Assembly: GCA_030682475.1 (NCBI GenBank)
Contig: JAUXOA010000040.1
Coordinates: 1-64,000 of the forward strand
Origin: Rhodoferax sp.
GTDB lineage: Bacteria > Pseudomonadota > Gammaproteobacteria > Burkholderiales > Burkholderiaceae_C
Length of the DNA stretch: 64,000 nt
Direction: 5' to 3'
Shown here: positions 4,169 through 58,860 of the stretch, one piece after another
Position numbering within the stretch: the first letter of the stretch is position 1
Layout: each line of letters starts with the position of its first letter
Position numbers and translations under genes: made by a program
The notes under the pieces: model-generated
Databases searched by the model: none
Seen by the model: the letters and a program-made list of their open reading frames with translations, nothing else
What the model was told of the DNA's origin: nothing

Positions 4169-5260
4169 TCAGGGGCTGAACAGGAAGTTCATCACATCGC
4201 CGTCCTTGACGATGTATTCCTTGCCTTCGCTGCGCATCTTGCCGGCGTCTTTGGCGCCCTGCTCGCCCTTGTAGCTGATGAAGTCGTCAAAAGCGATGGT
4301 CTGGGCGCGGATGTAGCCCTTCTCGAAATCGGTGTGGATCACACCTGCCGCTTGCGGGCCGGTATCACCCACGTGAATGGTCCAGGCGCGCACCTCTTTC
4401 ACACCCGCCGTGAAGTAGGTTTGCAGGCCCAGCAGCTTGTAGGCGGCCACGATCAGGCGGTTCAGGCCCGGCTCGTCCTGACCGATTTCATGGAGGAACA
4501 TTTTTTTGTCTTCCTCCTCCATGTCGGCCATTTCGGCTTCGATCTTGGCGCAGATCGCCACCACCGGCGCGTTTTGCGCGGCGGCGTAGGCCGTCAGGCG
4601 GTCCAGGAAAGGGTTGTTCTCAAAGCCATCTTCGGCCACGTTGGCCACAAACATGGTGGGCTTGGCAGTAATCAGGAAAAACTGCGTCAACAGCGGCAAC
4701 TCTTCTCTGCTGAAGTCCAGAGTACGAACCGGCTTGGCGTCGTTCAGTGCAGCTTGGCATTTTTCCAGAATTGCCACCAGCTTGATCGACTCCTTGTCGC
4801 CCGAGCGCGCGGTCTTGGTGACGCGGTGCAAGGCCTTTTCAACCGCCGTCAAATCCGCCAGGCACAACTCGGTCTGGATCACTTCAATGTCAGAGATCGG
4901 GTCCACCTTGCCGGCCACGTGGATCACGTTCTCGTCTTCAAAGCAGCGCACCACATTGAGGGTGGCGTCGGTCTCGCGAATGTGGGCCAGGAATTTGTTG
5001 CCCAGGCCCTCGCCGGTGCTGGCGCCAGCGACCAGGCCGGCGATGTCGACAAACTCCACGATGGCCGGCACGATGCGCTCAGGCTTGACGATGGCAGCCA
5101 GCGCGGCCAGCCGCGGGTCTGGCACTTCCACCATGCCCACATTGGGCTCGATGGTGCAAAAGGGATAGTTCTCCGCCGCAATGCCCGCCTTGGTCAGGGC
5201 ATTGAACAGGGTCGATTTACCGACGTTGGGCAAACCCACAATGCCACATTTCAAACTCAT
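4169..5260 (-). CDS. ychF: Redox-regulated Obg-like ATPase YchF
   Basis: A universally conserved P-loop ATPase of the OLA1/YchF group that binds ribosomes and affects translation-start choice and oxidative-stress responses. At 363 residues it has family length. The P-loop is GLPNVGKS (9-16) and the G3 motif is DIAG (about 71-74). The G4 segment reads NVAEDG instead of NKxD, which is the known reason these proteins prefer ATP over GTP. A C-terminal TGS domain runs from about residue 280 and ends in DGDVMNFLF. An AAGG lies about ten bases before the ATG. Confidence 0.97.
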
Positions 5261-31859: not shown

Positions 31860-31886
31860 CCGTTCGCACTGAGCTTGTCGAAGTGC
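31860..31886 (+). repeat. REP-like half repeat (CCGTTCG...TGAGCTTGTCGAAG type), copy 1
   Basis: A 27-base unit starting CCGTTCGCACTGAGC and ending TTGTCGAAGTGC. Related units are at 58834-58860 (inverted) and within uvrA at 37921-37971, where both arms are present. This copy touches the start of the HAD gene: its last bases contain a GTG in frame with it. Confidence 0.75.
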
Positions 31887-32758: not shown

Positions 32759-35700
32759 TCACCGGCTCAATACTGCCACCAGTGCCACCCCCGTAGGGGT
32801 GCCCAGCTTCACCACCCCTTCCGGCGTCGCAGCCGCCACCACGCGCCCACCGGCGTTGCCGCCGTCCGGTCCGAGGTCGATCACCCAGTCGGCTTCGGCG
32901 ATCACATCGAGGTCGTGTTCAATCACCACCACGCTGTGGCCGCCGTCGACCAGGCGGTGCAGCACTTTGATGAGCTTTTCGACATCCGCCATGTGCAGTC
33001 CGACGGTCGGTTCGTCCAGCACGTACAAAGTGTGCGGCGCCTTCATCCCGCGCCTCGTGATGTCATCGCGCACCTTGCTCAGTTCAGTCACCAGCTTGAT
33101 GCGCTGCGCCTCGCCACCGCTGAGCGTGGGCGACGGCTGGCCCAGCGTGAGGTAGCCCAGCCCGACGTCTTTCAGCAGTTGCAGCGGATGGCTGATATTG
33201 GGCATGGCGGCGAAGAATTCGACCGCCTCATCGACTTCCATTTGCAGCACGTCGCCTATGTTTTTGCCGCGCCAGGTCACCGCCAGGGTTTCGGGGTTGA
33301 AGCGCGCGCCCTTGCAGGTTTCGCACAGCACTTTGACGTCGGGCAGGAAACTCATGGCGATGGTGCGGATGCCCTGCCCTTCACAGCCGGCGCAGCGGCC
33401 CTCACCGGTGTTGAAGCTGAAGCGGTTGGCGGCATAGCCTCGCGCTTTGGCTTCCAGCGTGTCGGCAAACAGCTTGCGGATGATGTCCCAGAAGCCGATG
33501 TAGGTGGCTGGGCAACTGCGCGGGGTTTTGCCGATGGGGGTCTGGTCCACTTCCAGTACGCGGTCGACAAGCTCAAAGCCCGTAACAGCCGCGCAGCCGA
33601 CCCAGGTGATGGGTTCGCCTGCGGCCAGTGCGTCGCGGCCGGCTTTGGTGCTGCGTTTCTGGACCGCGGTGTGCACGTTGACCAGCAGCACGTCGCGGGC
33701 GAGGGTGGATTTACCGGAGCCGGAGACGCCGGTGACGGCGACGAGGCGGCTGAGGGGGACGTCGGCGGTGACGTTTTGCAGGTTGTGCAGGGTGGCGCCC
33801 GTGACGGTGAGCCAGCGCTGCGCTGAAATCGCTGCAACGGGGTCCGTCACTACGCTTCTTCTGGCCTGTAGCGGGTGTTGCATGGCGTGCAGCAGATAGC
33901 GGCCGGTCTGCGAGTCGCTGGCTTGCACGATATCGGCCACCGTGCCTTCGGCCACCAGTCGTCCGCCGCGTTTGCCGGCGCTGGGGCCGATGTCGATGAT
34001 GTGGTCGGCGTGGCGAATCGTGTCTTCATCGTGCTCCACCACTACCAGTGTGTTGCCTTTGTCGCTCAGGCTTTTTAGCGCACCCAACAGGATCTGGTTG
34101 TCACGCGCGTGCAGGCCGATGGTGGGCTCGTCCAGCACGTAGCACACGCCCTGCAGGTTGCTGCCGAGTTGCGCCGCCAGACGGATGCGCTGGGCCTCGC
34201 CACCACTGAGCGTCGGCGCACCACGATCGAGCGTCAGGTAGCCCAGGCCGACCTGTTCGAGAAACTCCAGTCGGCTTTTTATTTCCGGAATCAGGTCGCG
34301 GGAAATGCCCGCTTCGCGCGCACTCATGCGGTTCTTGTCTTGAAGGGTTTGGACCCACTGCCGGATGTCGGTCACGCTCAGGCGGGCGAGGTCGGTGATG
34401 CTCACACCATTGAACTTCACGGCGCGGGCGGTCGCGTTCAGGCGGGTACCCGCGCAACCGGGGCAAGCCGCATCCACCAAGTCTTCCACCTCAGGCTCGG
34501 CAAAGGTCTGCTCGCGCCCCTTGTTGTCATCGTCACGAACGGAATCGTCAAACACCTTGCGCTGCTCTTTGGTCAAGCGCACACCGGTGCCGACGCAGTC
34601 CGGGCACCAGCCGTGCTTGCTGTTGTAGGAAAACAGGCGCGGGTCCAGCTCGGCATAGCTGGTGCTGCACAGCGGGCAGGCGCGCTGGGTGGAGAAAGCA
34701 GCCAGCGTACCGATGGTGGCGGTCGATGTACCGGCCAGCATGGCCTCGCGCAAGCCGCTCAGATTGCTCAGCACATGCACCACCCCCTTGCCATGCACCA
34801 GCGCGGCAGCCAGCGCCTCGCGCAAGGCCGCCTCTTTCTCCGGCAACACGTCCAGACTGGCCACCGGCAGCTCAATCGTATGCTCCTTGAATCGGTCAAT
34901 GCGCGGGAAACCGGTGGTCGGTAAAAAGTTGCCATCCACCCGCAGATGGGTGAAGCCACGCGGCCGCGCCCAATCCGCCAGCTCGGTGTACACGCCCTTG
35001 CGGTTCATCACCAAAGGGGCCAGCAAGCCGATGTGCTGGCCGGAGAAGTTTTTCAGCAATTGCGCGGCAATGCTGTCCGGCGTTTGCGGCGCTACTGCCG
35101 TGCCGTCATGGATGCAGTGCTGTGTGCCGAGCTTCACAAACAGCAGACGCAAAAAATGCCAGACCTCGGTGGTGGTGCCGACGGTTGATTTTCTGCCGCC
35201 ACGGGACAAGCGCTGCTCGATCGCCACGGTGGGCGGAATGCCGTACACCGCGTCCACTTCCGGCCGCCCGGCCGGCTGCACGATGGAGCGGGCATAGGCG
35301 TTGAGCGACTCCAGGTAACGGCGCTGGCCTTCGTTGAAGAGGATGTCGAAGGCCAGCGTCGATTTGCCCGAGCCAGACACGCCAGTGATCACATTGAACT
35401 TGCCGCGCGGGATGTTGACACTGAGGGATTTGAGGTTGTGTTCTCGGGCGTTGATGATCTGGATCGACTGTGCGGTGCCCGCTGGAGATGCGTCATTGCG
35501 AGCAACGCGAAGCAATCCATCTTCCAAAGGCATGGATTGCTTCGTTCCTCGCAATGACGGGAGGGAGGAGGGGACCCAGCTCCTCGCCTCTTGCACTGTT
35601 GCAACACCAATCCCCAATGCGCTGTCGTACTCGCGCAAGGCCTTGCCAGTGTGCGAGCTCGGGTGCTGGCGCACATCTTCTGGGGTGCCCACAGTCACCA

Positions 35701-38677
35701 CTTCACCACCAGCGTCACCGCCTTCGGGGCCGAGGTCAATCAGCCAGTCACTGGCGCGGATCACATCGAGGTTGTGCTCAATCACCACCAGCGAATGGCC
35801 GGCATCAAGCAGCCTGCGCAAGGCGCGCATCAACTTGGCGATGTCGTCGAAATGCAGGCCGGTGGTGGGCTCGTCAAACATGAACAGGGTGCCGCGCCGG
35901 GCCGTCGCCTGGCGGCTGACGGTGGCACTTTTAGCGGCTTCGGCCAGAAACCCGGCCAGCTTGAGACGCTGCGCCTCGCCGCCTGACAGGGTTGGCACCG
36001 GCTGCCCGAGCCTCACGTATTCCAGGCCCACATCAACGATAGGCTGCAGGGCACGGATGACGTCGCGGTCGGCGGCAAACAGGGTGGCCGCCTCACTGAC
36101 TGTGAGATTCAATACGTCGGCCACATTCAAGGATTTGCCACGCCGCTCAACCGTGACCTCCAGTATCTCGGGCCGGTAGCGCTTGCCATCGCAGTCCGGG
36201 CAGCGCAGATACACATCACTCAAAAACTGCATTTCCACATGCTCAAAGCCCGAGCCGCCGCAGGTGGCGCAGCGGCCATCGCCGTTGTTGAAGCTGAATT
36301 TGGAAGCGGTGTAGCTGCGCTGACGCGACAGCGGCGCATTGGCGAAGATCTCGCGGATGGCGTCCCAGGCACCGACATAACTGGCCGGGTTGGAGCGTGC
36401 CGTTTTGCCAATCGGGGACTGGTCCACAAACACCACATCGCTGAGTTGCTCGGCGCCCAGCAGGCGCTCATGCGCGCCCGGCGCTTCAGTGGATTTGCCA
36501 AAGTGGCGCAGCAGGGCCGGTGCCAGAATGTCCTGGATCAGGGTCGATTTTCCGGAGCCGCTGACGCCGGTCACGCAGACCAGGCGTTGCAGGGGAAATT
36601 CGACCGTCACGTTTTTCAGATTATGGTCACGCGCGCCCTCCAGAATGAGGCGCGGCGTGTTGGCTGCCACCAGCCGCTTGAACCCGATGCCGACCTGCTT
36701 GCGGCCTCCGAGGTAGGCGCCGGTGAGGGTGTCGGCATGGCGCAAGTCGGCGATAGCGCCATCAAACACGATCTGACCGCCGCGCTCGCCGGGGCCGGGC
36801 CCCATGTCGATAACGCGGTCGGCTGCCAGCATCACGGCCGGATCGTGCTCCACCACCACCAGCGTGTTGCCGGCATCGCGCAGGCGCTGCATGGCGAGGA
36901 TGATGCGGTGCATGTCACGCGGGTGCAAGCCAATGCTGGGCTCGTCCAGCACGAACAAGGTGTTGACCAGCGAAGTGCCGAGTGCGGTGGTGAGGTTGAT
37001 GCGCTGCACTTCACCGCCCGACAGGGTGCGGCTTTGGCGGTCCAGCGTGAGGTAGCCAATGCCGACCTCGCACAGGTATTTGAGGCGGGTGGTGATTTCT
37101 TCGAACAGCAGTTTTTGCGCTTGCTGGTTGGCATTGTCCAGAGGCGCCAATTGGGGGTCAGAGCCCAATTTCGAAGTCGCTCCACTTTCGCCGGATACAG
37201 CGTGTCCTGAATTGGGATCTGACCCCAAATTGGCTATTTGAACGCTGTCAAAGAAACGGCGCAGCCGCTCCAGCGGCAACAGCATCAAGTCATGCAGACA
37301 CAGACCCGGCAGGGCTTCGAGCTGCGCGCGTGTCCACTTCACCCCGACCGGCATGAAACGTTTTCCCGGCTCCAGCACGGCATCGGCAGCCGCCTTGCTA
37401 CCCACGCGCCACAGCAGACTCTCCAGCTTCAACCGGGCGCCGCCGCAGACGCCGCACGGCGTGTAGCTGCGGTACTTGGACAGCAGCACACGAATGTGCA
37501 TCTTGTAGGACTTGGTCTCCAGGTACTCAAAGAAACGCTTGATGCCGAACCAGTGCTGGTTCCATTTGCCGTTCCAGTTCGGTGAGCCATTGACCACCCA
37601 GTATTGCTGCTCGGCGGTGAGCTTGTACCAGGGCGTGTCGCGCGGAATGCCGGCGCTCTCGGCATGGCGCATCAGATCATCCTGGCATTCTTGCCAGGCC
37701 GGGGTTTGCATCGGCTTGACGGCGCCGGCGCGCAGTGTCAATTTCTCGTTGGGAATCACCAGCCCATAGTCAACCCCAATGACGCGGCCAAAGCCGCGAC
37801 AGGTTTCGCACGCGCCCACCGCCGAGTTGAAGGAGAACATCGACGCGATCGGGTCGGTGTAGCGGATGTCACTCTGCGGGCAATGCAGACCGGTGGAAAA
37901 CTTCCAGACGTCGGCCTCATCCGTTCGGCCTGAGCCTGTCGAAGGCGTTTCGACAGGCTCAACGCGAACGGTTGACGCATACACCGCCATGCGCCCACTG
38001 CCGTGTTTGAGTGCCACCTCAATCGCCTCCAGCACGCGCGCGCGCTCGGCATTGCCGAGCCGAAAACGGTCCGCCACCACATCCAGCACTTTGCGCGGCC
38101 CACTCAGGCTGGCCAGCTCCCGCTGCGCCTGCACTTTGGTAAAGCCGCTGACTGAGAGCCACTGTTCGATTTCTTCTGGTGTTGTGTTGGCTGGCAACTC
38201 CACCGGAAACGTCACCACCAGCCGAGGGTCAGGCAGGGCCCCCACGCGACGCTGGAGCTCGGCGTAAATCGTCTCGGGTGAGTCGTGCCGCACCGCTTGC
38301 GCCGTCTCGCGGTCAACCAATTGGCCACCACGTGCAAATAAAAGCTTCAGGTGGTCGTTGAGTTCGGTCATTGTGCCCACCGTAGAGCGCGAGGAACGTA
38401 CCGGATTGGTCTGGTCAATGGCAATGGCTGGCGGTACGCCTTCCACCTTGTCGACCGCGGGCTTGTCCATGCGATCCAGAAACTGGCGCGCGTAAGCCGA
38501 GAAGGTTTCCACGTAGCGCCGCTGGCCCTCCGCATACAGCGTATCGAACACCAGACTCGACTTGCCTGAGCCACTGGGGCCGGTGACCACCGTCAACTCG
38601 CCGGTGCGAATGTCAAGGTCAAGATTTTTCAGATTGTGTTGGCGCGCGCCGCGAATGCGGATAAAACCGTGTGGCAT
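32759..38677 (-). CDS. uvrA: Tandem (double-length) excinuclease ABC subunit UvrA
   Basis: DNA damage-recognition ATPase of nucleotide excision repair, at 1972 residues about twice the usual 940. Two UvrA-like units are joined head to tail: about 1-1035, and about 1066-1972 starting IQIINAREHNLKSL. Four Walker A lysines are visible (Lys39, 710, 1105, 1656), each with an LSGGE-type signature and a DEPxxGLH Walker B. Most zinc modules have paired CxxC, but the first reads HCPQSD and lacks one Cys. Double UvrA proteins are known in Burkholderiales. Three palindromic repeats lie in frame (residues about 236-253, 482-511, 1040-1063), adding about 70 residues at likely surface loops. A terminator upstream separates it from the symporter operon. 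Confidence 0.93.
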   Translation of the reverse strand: MPHGFIRIRGARQHNLKNLDLDIRTGELTVVTGPSGSGKSSLVFDTLYAEGQRRYVETFSAYARQFLDRMDKPAVDKVEGVPPAIAIDQTNPVRSSRSTVGTMTELNDHLKLLFARGGQLVDRETAQAVRHDSPETIYAELQRRVGALPDPRLVVTFPVELPANTTPEEIEQWLSVSGFTKVQAQRELASLSGPRKVLDVVADRFRLGNAERARVLEAIEVALKHGSGRMAVYASTVRVEPVETPSTGSGRTDEADVWKFSTGLHCPQSDIRYTDPIASMFSFNSAVGACETCRGFGRVIGVDYGLVIPNEKLTLRAGAVKPMQTPAWQECQDDLMRHAESAGIPRDTPWYKLTAEQQYWVVNGSPNWNGKWNQHWFGIKRFFEYLETKSYKMHIRVLLSKYRSYTPCGVCGGARLKLESLLWRVGSKAAADAVLEPGKRFMPVGVKWTRAQLEALPGLCLHDLMLLPLERLRRFFDSVQIANLGSDPNSGHAVSGESGATSKLGSDPQLAPLDNANQQAQKLLFEEITTRLKYLCEVGIGYLTLDRQSRTLSGGEVQRINLTTALGTSLVNTLFVLDEPSIGLHPRDMHRIILAMQRLRDAGNTLVVVEHDPAVMLAADRVIDMGPGPGERGGQIVFDGAIADLRHADTLTGAYLGGRKQVGIGFKRLVAANTPRLILEGARDHNLKNVTVEFPLQRLVCVTGVSGSGKSTLIQDILAPALLRHFGKSTEAPGAHERLLGAEQLSDVVFVDQSPIGKTARSNPASYVGAWDAIREIFANAPLSRQRSYTASKFSFNNGDGRCATCGGSGFEHVEMQFLSDVYLRCPDCDGKRYRPEILEVTVERRGKSLNVADVLNLTVSEAATLFAADRDVIRALQPIVDVGLEYVRLGQPVPTLSGGEAQRLKLAGFLAEAAKSATVSRQATARRGTLFMFDEPTTGLHFDDIAKLMRALRRLLDAGHSLVVIEHNLDVIRASDWLIDLGPEGGDAGGEVVTVGTPEDVRQHPSSHTGKALREYDSALGIGVATVQEARSWVPSSLPSLRGTKQSMPLEDGLLRVARNDASPAGTAQSIQIINAREHNLKSLSVNIPRGKFNVITGVSGSGKSTLAFDILFNEGQRRYLESLNAYARSIVQPAGRPEVDAVYGIPPTVAIEQRLSRGGRKSTVGTTTEVWHFLRLLFVKLGTQHCIHDGTAVAPQTPDSIAAQLLKNFSGQHIGLLAPLVMNRKGVYTELADWARPRGFTHLRVDGNFLPTTGFPRIDRFKEHTIELPVASLDVLPEKEAALREALAAALVHGKGVVHVLSNLSGLREAMLAGTSTATIGTLAAFSTQRACPLCSTSYAELDPRLFSYNSKHGWCPDCVGTGVRLTKEQRKVFDDSVRDDDNKGREQTFAEPEVEDLVDAACPGCAGTRLNATARAVKFNGVSITDLARLSVTDIRQWVQTLQDKNRMSAREAGISRDLIPEIKSRLEFLEQVGLGYLTLDRGAPTLSGGEAQRIRLAAQLGSNLQGVCYVLDEPTIGLHARDNQILLGALKSLSDKGNTLVVVEHDEDTIRHADHIIDIGPSAGKRGGRLVAEGTVADIVQASDSQTGRYLLHAMQHPLQARRSVVTDPVAAISAQRWLTVTGATLHNLQNVTADVPLSRLVAVTGVSGSGKSTLARDVLLVNVHTAVQKRSTKAGRDALAAGEPITWVGCAAVTGFELVDRVLEVDQTPIGKTPRSCPATYIGFWDIIRKLFADTLEAKARGYAANRFSFNTGEGRCAGCEGQGIRTIAMSFLPDVKVLCETCKGARFNPETLAVTWRGKNIGDVLQMEVDEAVEFFAAMPNISHPLQLLKDVGLGYLTLGQPSPTLSGGEAQRIKLVTELSKVRDDITRRGMKAPHTLYVLDEPTVGLHMADVEKLIKVLHRLVDGGHSVVVIEHDLDVIAEADWVIDLGPDGGNAGGRVVAAATPEGVVKLGTPTGVALVAVLSR
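35491..35559 (-). repeat. In-frame palindromic repeat in uvrA, CGTCATTGCGAG type
   Basis: CGTCATTGCGAG ... GAAGCAATCCAT (35491-35520) faces ATGGATTGCTTC ... CTCGCAATGACG (35532-35559). At 69 bases it is exactly 23 codons. It encodes SLRGTKQS ... RVARNDA at the junction of the two UvrA units. The same core is a well-known dispersed repeat in many bacteria. No stop arises in the uvrA frame. Confidence 0.85.
37146..37234 (-). repeat. In-frame palindromic repeat in uvrA, AATTGGGGTCAGA type
   Basis: Two 25-base arms, 37146-37170 and 37210-37234, match at 23 of 25 positions as inverted repeats around GGGGTCAGA and CAATT. A 39-base centre lies between. It encodes LGSDPNSGH ... KLGSDPQLA, in the linker before the first signature motif of UvrA unit 1. 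Confidence 0.8.
37921..37971 (-). repeat. In-frame palindromic repeat in uvrA, TGAGCCTGTCGAA type
   Basis: A 51-base palindrome, exactly 17 codons: CCGTTCG (37921-37927) pairs with CGAACGG (37965-37971), and TGAGCCTGTCGAA (37931-37943) with TTCGACAGGCTCA (37949-37961). It encodes VRVEPVETPSTGSGRTDE in the loop before the first zinc module. Half units of the same family lie at 31860 and 58834. Confidence 0.88.
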
Positions 38678-58833: not shown

Positions 58834-58860
58834 GGGCTTCGACAAGCTCAGCCCGAACGG
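58834..58860 (-). repeat. REP-like half repeat, copy 2
   Basis: On the minus strand CCGTTCGGGCTGAGC, then TTGTCGAAGCCC. It is the same 27-base unit as 31860-31886 and as one arm of the uvrA palindrome at 37921. It lies in the 5' leader of glcB, 19 bases before its ATG. Confidence 0.75.

Follow-up and report, generated by a model that had tools for sequence, protein, structure and literature searches.

How does a single gene come to hold three unrelated palindromic repeats within its reading frame? The question is raised by a gene in the window, by which we mean the whole stretch of 64,000 nucleotides analyzed here; it belongs to contig C45 of genome G000, a Rhodoferax genome of 3.29 Mb in 112 contigs. 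The gene and its three elements are as follows.

32759..38677, minus strand: tandem (double-length) UvrA gene, 1972 aa, reading frame open throughout.
35491..35559, no strand assigned: element A, an inverted repeat; 69-bp CGTCATTGCGAG-type inverted dimer encoding about residues 1040-1062, which belong to the inter-half linker.
37146..37234, no strand assigned: element B, an inverted repeat; 89-bp GGGGTCAGA-type inverted dimer of two REP-like units, encoding about residues 482-511.
37922..37970, no strand assigned: element C, an inverted repeat; 49-bp TTCGACAGGCTCA-type palindrome encoding about residues 236-252.

An earlier note on this DNA had described three unrelated palindromic repeats lying in frame in one gene, and the description holds: the 1972-aa open reading frame is uninterrupted, and the elements are mutually unrelated in sequence as judged by eye. 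An inverted-repeat search placed their arms at 35491-35507 and 35543-35559 (A, 94%), 37146-37181 and 37199-37234 (B, 81%), and 37914-37943 and 37949-37978 (C, 83%). The length of 69 bp previously given for A is exact, the 89 bp given for B is recovered when measured between the outer arms, and the 51 bp given for C is replaced by a palindrome of 49 bp. Because 89 is not a multiple of three, the bare B element cannot insert cleanly in frame without an indel, and the net insert must differ from it. Four of the six reading frames are open in each element (for B, across an 85-bp core). Within the window, the B core motif matches four times with at most three mismatches (0.48 expected; none of 100 shuffles reaches four) and the C core motif seven times with at most two mismatches (1.5 expected; none of 100 shuffles reaches seven); the A motif with two mismatches shows no excess in the window, with 4 matches vs 7.95 expected. 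One-mismatch copies of the C motif are also present outside the gene, close to the starts of ORFs (31870-31882 and 58838-58850). Across the 3.29-Mb genome, the exact A 12-mer has five matches at four sites, two of the five being the ones described here.

The host had been labeled simply as uvrA. Its membership of the UvrA fold and family stands: the first half (about residues 1-1020) matches the solved UvrA structure 2r6f in sequence (8.7e-218), and an AlphaFold2 model of this half (mean pLDDT 72.8, pTM 0.62) aligns to UvrA 3uwx in Foldseek (E = 6e-69). NCBIfam model NF001503 matches the protein in four stretches, best in the second half (about residues 1066-1972), and TIGR00630 matches in three, best in the first half. 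This is, however, not the ordinary gene but a tandem UvrA-UvrA paralogue, and a separate canonical uvrA of 1060 open codons is present on contig C48 of the same genome. Motifs A, B, and C were not found in that canonical gene. The genome assembly has one more canonical uvrA, truncated and lying at a contig edge (G000:C23:1-1659); it is 81% identical and possibly a paralogue or contamination. The closest named orthologue of the tandem protein comes from a Rhodoferax metagenome-assembled genome (MAG; 82%, among the 80 top-ranking of at least 590 loci). All 60 relatives listed match the tandem query, some, among the matches listed, with matches of canonical size only.

Alignment of orthologues shows that unrelated families reuse the same sites of tandem UvrA. 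Of the 110 aligned rows, 30 come from genus genomes and the rest from named loci, the 80 top-ranking ones among at least 590; each row is the longest open frame, which favors in-frame inserts, and the rows are related rather than independent. Inserts cluster at some seven positions of the query (residues 190, 238, 482-510, 847, 1034-1066, 1422, and 1611); those at residues 148 and 1674-1691 are smaller. Orthologues without the window's repeats, against which the earlier note had proposed to place the insertions, do exist: close relatives lack the A, B, and C inserts or differ there, and at the element A site the orthologues compared have other or shorter sequence. A MITE would be marked by a target-site duplication and terminal inverted repeats; insert borders are blurred in the compared pairs, and no target-site duplication was legible in them. 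At residue 190, a B dimer is found in G001, G012, G030, and G034 and an apparent remnant in G018, and no B element is found at this residue in G007 and G028. Three genus members have A-type DNA at residue 482. Altogether, nine motif-defined families occur in 45 of the 110 rows; site 482 hosts five of the nine, site 1040 six, and site 1611 five. A tenth regex-defined family, A2 (GTCATTCC), has no match in the 110 rows, though several inserts at site 1040 resemble it by eye.

The inserts are palindromic beyond what base composition would yield. Chance palindromes can be rejected, since 30 of the 50 genus inserts of at least 25 aa exceed all 60 of their dinucleotide shuffles in inverted-repeat score; the proportion is 10/30 for genus inserts of 15-24 aa and 3/43 for those of 8-14 aa. 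Among the other named loci, the corresponding figures are 18/44, 13/50, and 8/123. Inserts of at least 15 aa number 174, of which 74 contain a named family, 20 more are palindromic without one, and 80 are neither. Blastn among inserts (taken with 18 bases of flank) gave 519 alignments joining different sites, and the nine motifs make 153 contacts with insert DNA (27 kb) vs 8 in core DNA (584 kb).

Structure models bear on the suggestion that each repeat falls at a predicted loop or linker. In the model of the first half, pLDDT drops below 50 at residues 237-254 (the C peptide) and 484-513 (the B peptide). This moderately supports loop placement of B and C, given that ten of the twelve stretches below 50 in this model lie elsewhere, some of them in conserved parts (e.g., residues 56-79). 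Element A lies in the inter-half linker, at which the two half models were cut. As judged by eye, the other main insertion sites of the relatives (residues 190, 847, 1422, and 1611) are at places where the models turn or loop from one secondary-structure element to the next.

Tandem uvrA is not the only decorated gene; we rejected this idea because many other genes of G000 carry elements in frame. Family C has 39 exact motif matches in this genome, which we merged by hand into 32 sites. Nineteen of these lie in frame in the interior of coding ORFs with a family match, inside 17 genes: those for HrpA, a SpoU methylase, an HsdR-like protein, FMN_bind_2, IcmF, lipoamide dehydrogenase, tandem UvrA, IleS, CobB, LigA, a YdiJ-like protein, PolA, PurL, LplA/B, and a xanthine-dehydrogenase type protein, plus two hosts with two sites each, Tex and an MmeI-like ORF (in which the second stretch, in the same ORF, has no Pfam match when taken alone). 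The other 13 sites are between genes or at ORF starts, as judged by ORFs alone. The earlier note had called for a genome-wide count of in-frame against frameshifting copies, and this count gives 19 of 32 family C sites in frame and no frame-breaking or gene-splitting copy seen among the 32, with the 13 assessed from ORFs. Several elements occupy domain boundaries: family C lies between the OB-fold and zinc finger of LigA, between two exonucleases in PolA, and between two MoCo domains in Xdh, and in Tex it adjoins a split YqgF match. Not all copies sit between domains: those of FMN_bind_2 and LplA/B are internal to one Pfam domain.

Family B behaves similarly. It has 35 matches in G000 with at most two mismatches, many of them as inverted pairs (loci were assigned for 30 of the 35 and spanning ORFs named for some), and is also in frame in GltB and PurL. 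In G012 and G030 together, a coding-like ORF, in part a putative gene, runs across the element at 16 of the 22 site loci examined. PurL, Tex, and the MmeI-like ORF of G000 contain two elements each. One loop of LipB is used by two families, C occupying it in G000 and B in G012 and G030. A further B-associated locus in G000 suggests how this family may be mobilized:

G000:C67:4218-5087: Y1 (RAYT-like) transposase gene, PF01797, between inverted B-subtype ends at 4218 and 5071.

The enzyme encoded here, a Y1 transposase of the RAYT/TnpAREP-like kind, is the probable mobilizer of family B. The gene lies just upstream of gltB, which has its own in-frame B dimer.

The elements can be compared with known palindromic repeats. 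Element B consists of inverted paired units and is dispersed, as are REP/BIME elements, and a subtype of it flanks a Y1 transposase gene in G000, as in RAYT/TnpAREP systems with their REP/BIMEs; unlike these, it has no GTAG tag that we could see by eye. One bacterium that matters for the comparison is abbreviated O. terrae in the literature, which we take to be Opitutus terrae. REPs in frame in uvrA have been known since 2013, when Di Nocera et al. (PMC3733652) reported them inside uvrA of O. terrae and Thioalkalivibrio, and also within uvrB of R. conorii, DNA polymerase I, DNA ligase, and other repair and further genes. In the portion of that paper drawn on here, tolerance at linkers is proposed, neutral linkers and mutator effects are both discussed, and chance alone is thought unlikely to account for REPs in replication and repair genes, the reason being a matter of speculation there. 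The same source defines CGTC REPs by a CGTC tag at one end and a CCA tail, with a stem of 8-9 bp and a loop of 4-5 nt. Element A has both the tag and the tail, each of its units reading CGTCATTGC...GCAATCCA; a single unit pairs over only about 5 bp (ATTGC/GCAAT, by eye), and the greater part of the fold comes from pairing of one unit with the other. High copy number, a property of CGTC-type REPs, was not seen for element A in G000, with its five exact matches at four sites. An A 11-mer has 279 matches in G012, and other genus members also exceed G000.

The likeness to the intragenic GTAG/CGTC REPs of PMC3733652 is thus close, in that the same kind of palindrome lies inside uvrA and element A bears the CGTC tag. 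The difference is one of convergence. As far as the portion of that work used here goes, shared sites are described only in recB of two Xanthomonas, with other genes of the same category having different sites, whereas here nine motif families reuse the same linkers of one paralogue, and the comparison includes canonical UvrA, flanking genes, and whole genomes. The parallel drawn by the earlier note with the palindromic elements of Rickettsia (RPEs) is apt, because the same source, in that portion, equates RPE-6 and RPE-4 with CGTC repeats (RPE-1 being described as longer), which places them in the superfamily whose tag element A carries. As with RPEs, palindromic DNA lies in frame in unrelated proteins, family C being the case in point; the organism is different, many families here converge on one protein, and the resemblance described here is one of behavior. 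Among the open-licence papers listed for intragenic palindromes, tandem UvrA, or these motifs, judged largely by their titles, we found nothing nearer than PMC3733652.

We consider it likely that A, B, and C are non-autonomous REP/BIME-like palindromic repeats that inserted into a functional tandem UvrA and survive there as open, in-frame, tolerated spacers. With four of six frames open, a copy that lands in coding sequence would often add an uninterrupted peptide, provided that the net insert is divisible by three in length. Insertion may be broad, with selection removing most copies that are out of frame or outside tolerant loops; those that survive would do so mainly where the peptide can serve as a tolerated spacer, in inter-domain linkers and loop turns, which is consistent with the models. 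A linker lengthened in this way could accept further insertions, so that families visit, replace one another, and accrete at the same sites. The reuse of sites is directly visible in the alignment, and the order of events is our proposal. Mobile DNA would in this case be a source of new spacers for conserved enzymes.

Comparison with canonical UvrA refines this picture. In 27 genus genomes, the canonical protein has 965-1053 aa and seven inserts of at least 15 aa, all at one site and none of the seven palindromic; one 8-aa insert reaches p = 0.016. Tandem UvrA in 15 genus genomes spans 1928-2212 aa, with more than 1880 open codons in each copy (all full-length or nearly so, the G034 copy being cut off by the end of its contig close to the C terminus). 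Under the same genus-only alignment rule as used for the canonical protein, 11 of its 27 inserts of at least 15 aa are palindromic, and against the 110-row alignment 26 of 52 are; the genus-only count is lower because inserts common to half of the rows are scored as core. Without any alignment, the nine motifs have 57 matches in the 15 tandem genes (92 kb), spread over 14 of them and falling to 51 when G000 is left out, vs no match in 27 canonical uvrA genes (82 kb) of the same genus. As far as sampled, then, the positions of tandem UvrA that hold repeats here hold other, unrelated ones in related bacteria, and the single-length sister holds none. The earlier note had proposed that UvrA "tolerates, or recruits" such elements. 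Tolerance fits the intact frame and the strongly constrained core (see below). Recruitment by UvrA remains conjectural, and UvrA in general does not have this property, since other genes carry elements in frame and canonical UvrA does not collect them. On the latter ground, we rejected a general property of UvrA as the cause.

Canonical UvrA shares the fold and is equally constrained, yet it lacks elements, a contrast that tolerance by itself leaves unaccounted for. In an alternative reading, tandem uvrA would be a favored landing or retention site, because REPs attract REPs, because its linkers contain target motifs, or because hairpins serve the gene (through mRNA stability or linker-length tuning, both hypothetical). 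The nine-motif contrast between tandem and canonical genes favors it, as does G012, in which three of 18 family B sites fall in tandem uvrA. A further control supports the main reading, insertion of dispersed repeats: a library of palindromic inserts gave 33 matches in 467 kb of tandem uvrA (19 of 80 loci having a match in the gene), whereas the flanking DNA had one match in 770 kb of coding sequence, two at ORF edges, and four in 76 kb of intergenic sequence; library and motifs derive from tandem uvrA and so favor that gene, for which reason we counted only matches from another organism and, within uvrA, from another site, and also give motif counts without G000. Genome-wide counts again favor preference: in the 27 genus genomes, the tandem gene has 20 of 404 family B matches (15 sites; 0.58 expected, 34-fold), 14 of 630 family A matches (7 sites; 0.93 expected, 15-fold), and 2 of 49 family C matches (1 site; 0.08 expected), where several matches are inherited, so that Poisson values overstate significance, the 27 are drawn from 60 genus genomes with sizes rounded, and 12 of these 27 have the gene incomplete or divided in two.

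Given this 15- to 34-fold excess, insertion or retention may be preferential in the tandem paralogue. Against preference of either kind, the matches are partly inherited rather than independent, and the motifs were picked for occurring in tandem uvrA; without G000, the counts become 19 of 386 for B, 12 of 625 for A, and 0 of 10 for C. The tandem gene carries B in 10, A in 4, and C in 1 of the 27 genomes, and other genes are reused too, as seen in the LipB loop (C or B) and in the three genes with two elements each. On balance, we regard a favored site as unlikely. We are similarly doubtful of its widest form, in which many palindromic families, unrelated to one another, would preferentially land or be retained in double-length UvrA across Comamonadaceae, with mobile hairpins setting and resetting its loop lengths and the single-length sister spared. 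If true, this would mean that insertion is targeted, with REP seeds attracting REPs, or that the hairpins or spacers benefit the gene.

We return to tolerated insertion into a functional gene, for which selective constraint is the relevant measure. Over nine pairs, core dN/dS is 0.05-0.11 in tandem UvrA vs 0.05-0.14 in canonical UvrA of the same pairs, and non-core aligned codons of tandem UvrA have a pN/pS of about 0.4-0.8 (eight pairs with enough codons, alignment uncertain there). The core is maintained and the inserts are under less constraint. A redundant, decaying tandem UvrA that gathers insertions for want of selection might be suspected from the presence of canonical uvrA in the same genome and from G023, where the tandem gene is divided among frames and contains a stop; core constraint as low in dN/dS as that of the canonical gene, together with fifteen genus copies open over more than 1880 codons, makes this very improbable, and we rejected decay. 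An assembly or binning artefact, conceivable because many rows are MAGs with fragmented contigs, was likewise rejected as having almost no chance of being correct, since the single-contig genome G010 has a 2212-aa copy, and family D is present at the linkers in question in isolates (Variovorax, Comamonas badia, and Polaromonas jejuensis).

What remains is a contrast within one genus and one fold, in which tandem UvrA collects palindromes and canonical UvrA does not, their cores being about equally constrained; tolerance and targeting are therefore directly testable against each other here. Two individual copies deserve mention. The broken gene of G023 (G023:C79:8100-14300), split over several frames with a stop and for that reason left out of the alignment, is the sole such case among the genus rows listed. 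In G012, site 1040 of tandem uvrA contains a local run of family A units that encode the peptide SSLRG several times over, a pattern resembling amplification on the spot.
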